Both the position numbers and the translations under genes were made by a program. A stretch of 64,000 nucleotides of DNA from Stappia sediminis (GTDB taxonomy: Bacteria; Pseudomonadota; Alphaproteobacteria; Rhizobiales; Stappiaceae). Below are positions 17,436 through 23,130 of the stretch, one piece after another; position 1 is the first letter of the stretch, and each line of letters starts with the position of its first letter. The stretch lies in the NCBI RefSeq assembly GCF_009826895.1, contig NZ_WUMV01000009.1, positions 62,001 to 126,000 of the forward strand, written 5' to 3'. The notes beneath the pieces are model-generated. The model made no database searches, was not told the DNA's origin, and saw nothing but the letters and a program-made list of their open reading frames with translations.

Positions 17436-18368
17436 ATGCGTTTTCTGATTGATGAAAGATCGCGGGCATTCGCGCTGCTCACGGTCATGCCGCTGTTTTT
17501 CTCTTCAAATCTCATTATCGGGCGGGCCGCGGTGAATGCGGTGGAACCCTGGACGCTTGCTTTCCTGCGGTGGACACTTGCCTTTCTCATGCTGTTGCCG
17601 TTCGCGACAAGGGGCATCAAGCAGCATTCGCGCCTCTTTCGGCAGCATTGGGACATGATCGCGATCATGGGCTTTCTCGGCATGTGGATCTGCGGTGCCG
17701 GCGTATACTTCGCGCTGCGCTATACCAGCGCCACGAATGGAACGTTGATCTATACATCCTCACCGGTGCTGATCCTCCTGCTGGAATGGATCTTCCGCGG
17801 CCGGCGGATCGTTCCGCGCGAAATCATCGGCATCGTGCTTGCGATCGCCGGCGTTGTAACGATTGTGGTCAAGGGCTCTTTGTCTGTGCTTTTGGGCCTT
17901 GACCTGAATGCCGGAGACATCGTCTTCGCCTTTGCCGCGCTGAGTTGGGCGGTCTATTCGGTCCTGCTCAAGCGTCCGGAATTCATGGGCGTGCCGACCC
18001 TGTCCCTGTTCGCTGTGCTTGCGTTTGCCGGGGCGGTTACGCTGCTGCCTTTCACGATTTGGGAAATCGCGGAGACGCGACGCTTTCCAGTGAGCTTGCC
18101 CGCATGGTCCTCGATCGCGGGTATAGCGCTTATTTCTTCCGTGCTGGCGTTTTCGTGCTTCCAATACGGCGTCAAAGTGCTTGGCCCCGCCACCACGGGC
18201 GTCTTCATGTATCTGCTTCCGCCTTACGGCGTGATGATGGCGGTCTTATTCCTCGGTGAGGAGCTTCATTTCTACCATCTGACGGGTTTCGTGCTCATCA
18301 TGGCCGGCCTTGTGCTGGCCACTGCGCCCAAGGCCTTGTTCAGGCGAATTAGGGTCAGGACCTATTAA
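17436..18368 (+). CDS. DMT superfamily (EamA) transporter, 3' end replaced by a mobile element
   Basis: A 310-residue protein with ten membrane spans in two EamA repeats (NLIIGRAAVNAVEPWTLAFL in the first; SWAVYSVLLKRPEF in the second), the layout of drug/metabolite exporters. The substrate is unknown. The final codons and the TAA stop lie inside the miniature element that begins at 18351: the last residues RVRTY are encoded by the element's terminal repeat. Removing the element and one TA copy would restore a frame reading ISMVLPSSASR before TGA. The core of the protein is intact, so it is probably still functional. Confidence 0.88.
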   Translation: MRFLIDERSRAFALLTVMPLFFSSNLIIGRAAVNAVEPWTLAFLRWTLAFLMLLPFATRGIKQHSRLFRQHWDMIAIMGFLGMWICGAGVYFALRYTSATNGTLIYTSSPVLILLLEWIFRGRRIVPREIIGIVLAIAGVVTIVVKGSLSVLLGLDLNAGDIVFAFAALSWAVYSVLLKRPEFMGVPTLSLFAVLAFAGAVTLLPFTIWEIAETRRFPVSLPAWSSIAGIALISSVLAFSCFQYGVKVLGPATTGVFMYLLPPYGVMMAVLFLGEELHFYHLTGFVLIMAGLVLATAPKALFRRIRVRTY

Positions 18369-18615
18369 ATTGAGGAAAATGGTATGAGCCAATTTGGTTG
18401 GATACGAGGAGCAAAAACGCAGGAAACCGTCTGGTTTTCAAGGCTTTTCGACAAAGTAGCCGGCCAAATCGGCCATATCTGTACAGACACCGAAACGGCT
18501 TCGACCTGCCTTGTCGAAGCGCTTGGCCGGGTAGTCAACCCGCCCCGCGCCCTTCGCCTAGCATCTCTTTGCCGTTTCAGGTGCCATTTCCGTCAATTTA
18601 ATAGGTCCTGACCCT
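18351..18615. mobile_element. 265-bp miniature inverted-repeat element, copy 1 (MITE-like)
   Basis: The element starts AGGGTCAGGACCTATT and ends with its inverted complement. The terminal arms match at 30 of 32 positions, with mismatches at positions 24 and 26. It is flanked by TA on both sides (18350-18351 and 18615-18616), as expected for a TA target duplication. A second copy, inverted, of exactly the same length lies at 22556-22820. Copies align along their whole length, but a one-base insertion and a later one-base deletion break any shared reading frame, so the element is non-coding. No transposase is in the window. TA targeting suggests mobilisation by an IS630/Tc1-type transposase; this is inference. 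Confidence 0.88.
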
Positions 18616-18655
18616 AGTATGGTCCTGCCCTCTTCCGCCTCCAGGTGAGCAAATT

Positions 18656-18685
18656 AAAAAAGGCGGGCCGCTGCCCGGCCCGCCT
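18656..18685 (-). terminator. Rho-independent terminator of the ccdA-like gene
   Basis: On the minus strand, 26 bases after the ccdA-like stop codon, a perfect 8-9 bp GC-rich stem (18661-18669 with 18677-18685, loop of seven) is followed directly by six T. This is a textbook intrinsic terminator. Confidence 0.88.
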
Positions 18686-18711: not shown

Positions 18712-19449
18712 TCATCCAACCGCGGAGAACTGGGGAAACGCCTCGAGCAGCCAATAGGAAAGCGCGGCCATCTGCCCCGTCATGAAGGCGACGCCCGTGA
18801 CGATGAGGAGCACGCCCATCGCCCGTTCGACGGTCATCATGTGCCGCTTGAAGCGCCCCATGAACTTCATGAAGGGGCCTGCGAAAAGTGCCGCTGCAAG
18901 GAACGGCACCCCAAGGCCGAGAGAGTAGGCACCGAGAAGATAGGCACCGCGCAGCACGGTATCCTCCGACCCGGCAATGAAAAGGATTGCCGCGAGGATC
19001 GGCCCGACGCACGGCGTCCATCCGAAGGCGAAGGCAAGACCGATGACATAGGCGCCGACCAGGCCGGCAGGCTTCTTCTCCACCTGGAAGCGGGCTTCGC
19101 GATAGAAAAGCCCTATCTTGAAGACACCGAGAAAATGCAGGCCCATGACAATGATGATGGCGCCAGCGAAATAGGCAAGCGTCTGTACGTGCTGCGTGAC
19201 GAACTGACCGACCAGCGAAGCGCTGGCGCCAAGCGAGACGAAAACGGTCGAAAAACCGAGCACGAAAAGAAGCGCCGTAAGAAAGACGCGCCGCGAATCC
19301 GCCTTTTCCTCGCCCTCGCCCGTCAGTTCGTCCAGGCTGACGCCCGCCAGAAAACCCAGGTATGGCGGAACAAGCGGCAGGACACAGGGCGACACGAACG
19401 AAATGATGCCGGCCACGAACGCACCGAACACCGTAACTTCACTCAACAT
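18712..19449 (-). CDS. ccdA: CcdA/DsbD-type thiol-disulfide transmembrane protein
   Basis: The start at 19449 (MLSEVTVFG) is supported by an upstream AAGGGGA and gives 245 residues with six to seven membrane spans. The family's two conserved cysteines are present in SFVSPCVLPLVPPYL (about residue 22) and FGWTPCVGPIL (about 140). CcdA passes electrons across the inner membrane to periplasmic thioredoxins, for cytochrome c maturation or related reductive steps. It is monocistronic, with a strong terminator, and lies between the two miniature elements. No other cytochrome c maturation gene is nearby. An upstream extension of the frame to 19608 lacks family features. Confidence 0.88.
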   Translation of the reverse strand: MLSEVTVFGAFVAGIISFVSPCVLPLVPPYLGFLAGVSLDELTGEGEEKADSRRVFLTALLFVLGFSTVFVSLGASASLVGQFVTQHVQTLAYFAGAIIIVMGLHFLGVFKIGLFYREARFQVEKKPAGLVGAYVIGLAFAFGWTPCVGPILAAILFIAGSEDTVLRGAYLLGAYSLGLGVPFLAAALFAGPFMKFMGRFKRHMMTVERAMGVLLIVTGVAFMTGQMAALSYWLLEAFPQFSAVG

Positions 19450-19725
19450 GTAACCGCGATCCCCTTTATGGCTTTCACAGTGCCTGGGCACCATCCGCAA
19501 TCGTTCGAGGGCAGGATGCTCCAGGCAACGGTTCGACTGAATTTCCGCGTTCCTAAGGCCATCCCGCATGATCCGCAACGCGCCGAAGTGTCGCTTGGGA
19601 GCGGCCAAGGTCCGCCGGTTATTTGCCGCAGACTATAGGCAGGAGGGAAACCGCAGTCTTCTCAACCTTCTGCGAGCCGCGAGTGAGTATCATGAACCCG
19701 GCTTGCCAGACGGCGTTCGCCGGCG

Positions 19726-22298: not shown

Positions 22299-22555
22299 AC
22301 CGTGACCGACCCCATTTAACGAACTGCAAGCAATGGACGCCGCGGTCGGGCTATGCCCCAGTGCGCGCGTGAGGCATCGGAGCACTATGTGTCAGCGGTA
22401 ATACCGTGTCTGCGTGACCGACTTTCTGTTGCCGAACTGCGTGCCCCGCTCATCCTGCCCTTGGCAAGCACTCTCTTCATACCCGCATTTTCCCAACCGG
22501 TTTTCCTTTTCCGCGCCCGGAATAACCATACGGTGCTTGCGTTTTTGAATAGGCT

Positions 22556-22820
22556 AGGGTCTGGACCCATAAAATTGATGCAAATGGCACCTGAAACGGC
22601 AAAGAAGTGCACGGAGAAGGGCGCGGAGCGGGTCGGGCACCCGGTCAAGCCCTTCGACGCGGCAGATCGAAGCCGTTTCGGTGTCTCGAAGATATGGCCG
22701 ATTTGGCCGGCTACTTTGTCGCAAGATCTTGAAAACCGGCCTGGTTTCCTGCGCTCTTGCTCCTCGTATCCAACCAAATCGGCTCATACCATTTCCGTCA
22801 ATTTTATGGGTCCAGACCCT
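22556..22820. mobile_element. 265-bp miniature inverted-repeat element, copy 2 (inverted relative to copy 1)
   Basis: Same length as the copy at 18351-18615 and alignable to it over the full length when reverse-complemented. It shares the internal GCCGGCCAAATCGGCC and the block TTTGCCGTTTCAGGTGCCAT. Its ends read AGGGTCTGGACCCATA and differ from copy 1 at arm positions 7, 13 and 16, in both arms alike. TA flanks both sides (22555-22556, 22820-22821). It lies in non-coding sequence. The interior frames differ from copy 1, so no gene is proposed. Confidence 0.88.
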
Positions 22821-23130
22821 AATAGCTTGCAAATCAAAATTCTGGCTTGGGCTGCAGGTTGGTTAATTTAAAATAAGAGATGCTTTGTGGCCGTGCAATT
22901 ACTTAAGGTCTTTTACTTATTTCTGGCAATTATCGGAAAATAAAATCGCCCTGTGTGGTAAGCTGCGAAGGTAGTCCATTGTATCCGACTTGAGTGCAAC
23001 CAGAGCGTTTTCCGTAGAAGCCTGATCGCTTTCGTAACCGGATTTCGCTCCAGCATCAAAATCCTGCGCATACCCTGGTCGCTATTTCCAATTCTTGTTC
23101 GACAGGATATGCGCTAAGGGAGGATAAACC
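22821..23130. other. Gene-free leader of the GYD-domain gene
   Basis: 310 bases, AT-richer than average, between miniature element copy 2 and the GYD gene. I see no gene. A strong ribosome-binding site GGGAGG at 23118-23123 belongs to the gene that follows. The promoter could not be fixed. Confidence 0.5.

Follow-up and report, generated by a model that had tools for sequence, protein, structure and literature searches.

Comparison with an element-free relative confirms that insertion of a MITE gave an EamA/DMT-family transporter gene of Stappia sediminis a new end, and that the old 3' end of the gene now lies beyond the element. The case is a documented replacement of a protein end by a mobile element, in which the predicted pre-insertion form is borne out by a relative in length and stop. 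The stop-codon pattern across the element family is more interesting than the focal gene itself. The explanation that best accounts for all of these observations, and which is held with high confidence, is a MITE, presumably mobilised in trans, whose end would act as a phase-dependent portable stop and whose insertions are tolerated at the ends of genes.

The window, the whole stretch of 64,000 nucleotides that was analysed, belongs to a genome of 4.79 Mb in 22 contigs. The transporter ORF encodes 310 amino acids (17,436–18,368, plus strand) and carries two EamA repeats, matched in two stretches by PF00892 (E 2e-39; 135.4 bits against a cut-off of 28.2). Its last five codons and its stop are inside the element. 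The gene ends CGA ATT AGG GTC AGG ACC TAT TAA, which reads RRI-RVRTY-stop, and the RVRTY codons and TAA occupy positions 18,351–18,368 of the plus strand. The first-pass annotation had assigned all 18 of these bases to the terminal repeat. The positions are correct, but the first A is part of the duplicated TA and the remaining 17 bases are repeat. The MITE spans 18,350–18,616, or 267 bp from TA to TA, which is the 265-bp insert that had been annotated plus the duplicated TA. Its left terminal inverted repeat (18,350–18,382, plus strand) has 94% identity over 33 bp to the reverse complement of the right one (18,584–18,616, minus strand). The left part of the target (T-TA, 18,349–18,351) and the right part (TA-G, 18,615–18,617) together give the YTAR site TTAG.

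The displaced former 3' end of the gene follows on the plus strand at 18,617–18,648, up to the old TGA at 18,646–18,648. A GC-rich hairpin (18,662–18,684) separates the transporter gene from a convergent neighbour, and has a terminator-like score on the minus strand only. The neighbour encodes a CcdA/DsbD-type membrane protein (longest ORF 18,712–19,608, minus strand; PF02683, E 1.9e-21). A search of the region for sigma-70-type promoters found none. The element contains a 75-aa ORF (18,384–18,611, plus strand) that was considered as a gene. Among the copies aligned, the 75-aa frame is found at the matching place in five near-identical copies and has 77 aa in the more diverged copy L017. The ORF has no Pfam match and is probably not a gene. 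A second copy of the element lies within the window at 22,555–22,821 on the minus strand and is called intergenic.

The window's genome contains 19 further near-full-length copies of the element, with 79–100% identity, one of which equals the focal element at 266 of 267 positions. With its matched 33-bp ends and its many copies, the element is not a chance palindrome. Genomes of the family yielded 90 distinct copies with paired ends; copies were dropped if TA was missing at either end, if the repeats had more than seven mismatches in all, or if they fell outside the length limits. The survey kept 16 of the 20 near-full-length copies of the window's genome. TA at both ends was a condition of entry, whereas the outer Y and R were free. 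A YTAR target is present in 85 of the 90 copies, and is CTAG in 57 of the 85.

Two of the 90 copies are full-length partner IS, of 843 bp (G040) and 837 bp (G073). The left end of the partner IS differs from the MITE end by one base of 19, and the right end by four of 19. Each partner has two overlapping frames with matches to PF13340/PF01609 and to NF033580, an IS5 transposase model whose cut-off is exceeded by the second halves and narrowly missed by the first. The element itself, with only its internal frame in 267 bp, has no transposase of its own. No complete partner IS was found in the window's genome, where partner ends with transposase sequence lie only at contig edges (L104:1-180, L200 and L202). 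Repeated IS copies break assemblies, so full copies are probably hidden there. Three further IS5-like matches are present in the same genome. Based on these sequences, the element appears to be a MITE of an IS5-family, IS427/IS711-like IS, with the group placed by size, the two ORFs and the target alone. An IS630-type origin, suggested by the TA duplication, was dropped because the full-length partners carry the halves of an IS5_3 transposase. The window's genome also harbors shorter repeats (L175, L176, L177, L180 and L181; e.g. G000:C10:307979-308191) that have the interior of the element and other ends (about AGGTCACGGACCCATAA). These are apparently a second MITE family with a common core.

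Removal of the insert and one TA from the transporter locus joins the flanks as ATT AGT ATG through AGG TGA. The joined sequence reads RR|ISMVLPSSASR-stop, with the stop at the old TGA, exactly as the first-pass annotation had reconstructed it. The closest relative among the genomes compared is Hongsoonwoonella zoysiae SY4-7 (Stappiaceae, Hyphomicrobiales; G002), with a transporter that is 87% identical and free of the element. This transporter ends RR|VIALLPLPTAR-TGA. The tail has the same length as the reconstruction, places TGA at the same position and is followed by a similar GC-rich hairpin. It had been proposed that an 11-residue tail was replaced by five residues, and that an element-free orthologue would end in the predicted sequence. 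The length, the stop and the context of the relative agree with this proposal, but the residues have diverged, and only 3 of 11 are shared.

That low identity would also fit the view that no tail was replaced, either because the lineage always ended in RVRTY or because the old 3' end lay elsewhere. Such a history is extremely improbable. When the joined sequence is aligned to H. zoysiae, the match extends over the junction, the TGA and the next hairpin, with short gaps only. The joined codons match at 21 of 36 bases, a value reached by 3 of 20,000 random 36-mers from the window. Moreover, RVRTY lies inside the end of a multicopy repeat. The difference in global alignment score between the versions with the insert and without it was dropped as evidence, because gap cost alone accounts for it.

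The transporter gene is likely to have survived the insertion, as judged from its intact frame, its two EamA repeats, a dN far below dS and the variable ends of its relatives. Over 304 codons compared with H. zoysiae, dN is 0.084 and dS 0.871, values that point to purifying selection on the transporter. The element copy is nearly identical to others, so the ratio would cover mostly the time before the insertion. A transporter match was found in 33 genomes, 3 of which yielded no locus and do not figure in the tail reading. In the 29 relatives read, including H. zoysiae (about 53–88% identical), 4 to 44 residues follow the aligned part, indicating that the end of the transporter is free to vary.

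An amidohydrolase (PF04909) of another genome, G031, provides a second and exact case. This gene is ended by the element repeat and reads KKL|LRVRTH-TAA, while its joined flanks predict LRL-TGA. At E 1e-100 or below, 5 of 86 genomes match, G031 itself among them, and the other four are all without the element at this locus. The amidohydrolase of G071, 84% identical, ends in LRL-TGA as predicted, and those of G041, G068 and G049 end in LKL-TGA. The difference between LRVRTH and the observed LRL indicates that an RVRT[Y/H] tail is a repeatable product of insertion in the phase where TA straddles two codons. The suggestion of the first-pass annotation that such elements can rewrite protein ends thus holds beyond the focal gene, and an RVRT[Y/H] tail close to such a repeat may not be native. 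Of the phase-1 and phase-2 frames among 108 rows of frames that enter the element, Pfam was applied to those of the window and L114 and to five others. These five, in L115 (264 aa), L086 (264), L187 (140), L041 (128) and L132 (125), lack a Pfam match and were left out of the tally of replaced gene ends.

The phase in which translation enters the repeat determines the outcome. Read in its three phases, the focal copy yields an immediate TAG, RVRTY-TAA, or a stop after 12 (left) or 19 (right) residues, counting the split codon. The first two phases have the same outcome from either side of the element; in diverged copies, the third can run much further. When the TA of YTAR occupies codon positions 1 and 2, the codon hit is by definition a TAG or TAA stop, and the TAGG of the element rebuilds the stop in place. 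The focal insertion, with TA straddling two codons, is of the less frequent kind. In the proposed mechanism, an IS5-family (IS427/IS711-like) transposase would act in trans on a non-autonomous MITE, inserting it at YTAR with duplication of TA. For the focal copy, the target would have been a TTAG about 34 bases short of the end of the EamA gene. With TA across two codons, translation would enter the repeat and stop after five residues. More generally, the repeat may be regarded as a portable stop cassette that works in both orientations, and its insertions presumably survive since gene ends tolerate them.

Of the 90 copies of the family set, 31 coincide exactly with stop codons, 10 fall inside coding sequence and the other 49 are called intergenic. 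Genes were called on the joined loci with a simple codon-usage caller, and background YTAR sites were taken from the same loci. Stop codons hold 31 of the 85 copies at YTAR compared to 61 of 756 background sites (Fisher p 2e-11). The excess persists when only sites outside coding sequence are counted (31/76 vs 61/449, Fisher p 1.4e-7), when these are restricted to CTAG (22/53 vs 13/88, p 4e-4), and when the two full-length IS copies are removed (30/83 YTAR copies in stops, p 5e-11). All 31 stop-hit sites have a Pfam match on the gene ending there. These genes are distinct rather than repeats of a single gene: only one pair within the set is similar at E 1e-3, through 24 residues of an AAA-protein match.

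The excess recurs in a second set, drawn from other families of the order. Sixty order-level stretches gave 27 qualifying copies, 11 of which are in stop codons. At YTAR the counts are 11/26 vs 18/413 background sites (p 5.7e-8), and outside coding sequence 11/23 vs 18/180 (p 3.4e-5). The comparison limited to CTAG outside coding sequence is not significant (6/10 vs 8/25, p 0.13). Five of the 27 copies are 652–849 bp long, including one stop hit, and without these five 10 of 21 YTAR copies are in stops (p 5e-8). A Pfam match is present on the gene ending at each of the 11 sites; in one case it falls under the curated cut-off. Two proteins of the second set resemble family-set proteins, with about 30% identity.

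A rebuilt stop ends, among others, the genes for LpxK, a YfiO/BamD-type lipoprotein, adenylosuccinate synthetase, a GyrB/ParE-type subunit and ThiS. In E. coli, genes of the first four kinds are either essential or important. ThiS needs its Gly-Gly end. The element directly follows thiS (L238:2474-2976), and the C-terminal Gly-Gly is kept because the stop is rebuilt by the element. At two loci a single target serves two genes. RecQ and a convergent alpha/beta hydrolase share a single TTAA as their stop (L257:2509-2776), and a methyltransferase and a protein with a tRNA-binding domain both end at one CTAG (L098:1501-1768); at both loci, the inverted ends in the palindromic YTAR supply TAG to the two convergent genes. 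Orthologues were looked up for two of the stop-codon cases. A ClpA-like gene of G001 ends VPKVPLAD-TAG at the element, and its element-free orthologues in the window's genome and in H. zoysiae end VPKVPLAD-TGA. SURF1 of the window's genome has 247 residues as called and ends in TAG at the element; it is about one residue shorter than its orthologue in H. zoysiae and two longer than that in G001, both of which are element-free. A transposon can thus enter genes, even important ones, and leave the protein unchanged.

It is reasonably probable that the excess reflects survivorship only: the element would hit any YTAR site, insertions in coding sequence and promoters would be purged, and those in stop codons and quiet intergenic DNA would remain. 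Only 10 of 90 copies are in called coding sequence compared to 307 of 756 background YTAR sites, so selection clearly acts, and an insertion in a stop codon leaves the protein unchanged. Copies in stop codons seem, if anything, older than the others, with a median identity to the nearest copy of 0.970 vs 0.981, a difference that is not significant (p 0.077). However, YTAR sites between convergent genes are expected to be about as harmless, and stop codons show an approximately 3-fold excess over them (31:8 vs 61:44, p 0.013; this is one of three comparisons, all in one direction, and is uncorrected).

This enrichment, together with the recurrence in other bacterial families, is consistent with a transposition complex whose preference goes beyond YTAR to stop codons or gene ends, guided by local DNA structure, supercoiling or the termination of translation. 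Such targeting is possible but rather unlikely. A 24-base profile beyond YTAR has mild skews only, such as a scarcity of T at -6 and of C at -4, the control numbers are small, and selection alone may explain the excess. Survivorship is more likely than targeting, and the excess over convergent sites hints at more. A doubtful further idea is that the IS711-like system treats stops as safe sites, with a target that includes TAG and TAA, TAGG ends that rebuild the codon even where two convergent genes have a palindromic stop in common, and insertion that is steered beyond selection, perhaps through the termination of translation or the DNA structure of gene ends. Independently of that idea, the pattern is a testable case of a genomic safe harbour, built from the target consensus and the element's own end.

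The stability of the element RNA raises the question of whether copies are kept as a functional part of the 3' UTR, as a terminator, an RNA stabiliser or a regulatory RNA. The RNA is predicted to fold at -126.5 kcal/mol (z -9.4 compared to shuffles), with interior hairpins in addition to the paired ends. However, the long inverted ends of any MITE make it fold stably, 59 of the 90 copies are outside stop codons, and no Rfam family reaches its gathering score in the element. A function of this type is quite improbable.

The partner IS resembles known insertion sequences. As described in passages of PMC3163539, PMC2266754 and PMC3281130, IS711/IS6501 and the IS427 group of the IS5 family are about 830–865 bp long, with two overlapping transposase ORFs and inverted ends, and IS711 makes a 2-bp TA duplication at YTAR. 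The partners of 837 and 843 bp share the size, the two ORFs, the TA duplication and the YTAR target with the elements so described. The likeness is by description, and the element studied here is a MITE whereas those are IS. The term 'stop codon' is absent from the main texts of the three papers. Among the matches listed, which cover open-licence papers only, none reports a MITE/stop-codon pattern of this kind, with ends that rebuild stops and about a third of the copies exactly there.

Rewriting of C termini by MITEs is known in kind, from RU-1 in PMC2759123 and from Rickettsia palindromic elements in PMC10969869. RU-1 and RU-2 are described in the former as TA-flanked, MITE-like repeats, and RU-1 at the 3' end of an enterobacterial amidase gene removed the normal stop and altered the C terminus (PMC2759123). 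RU-1 lengthens the protein through its own ORF, whereas in two of its three phases the element here brings translation to an end immediately or five residues on. MITEPsy1 of Pseudomonas syringae, as portrayed in part of PMC3189936, is also a small IS-linked MITE, with CTAG or YTAA as its target. It differs in its length of 100 nt, in the duplication of four bases and in its 18-nt repeats of other sequence (PMC3189936). Finally, the Rickettsia palindromic elements are, in the relevant portion of the review, likewise small repeats that alter host proteins (PMC10969869). Those elements are in-frame insertions within coding sequence, whereas the element described here acts by termination at the ends of genes.
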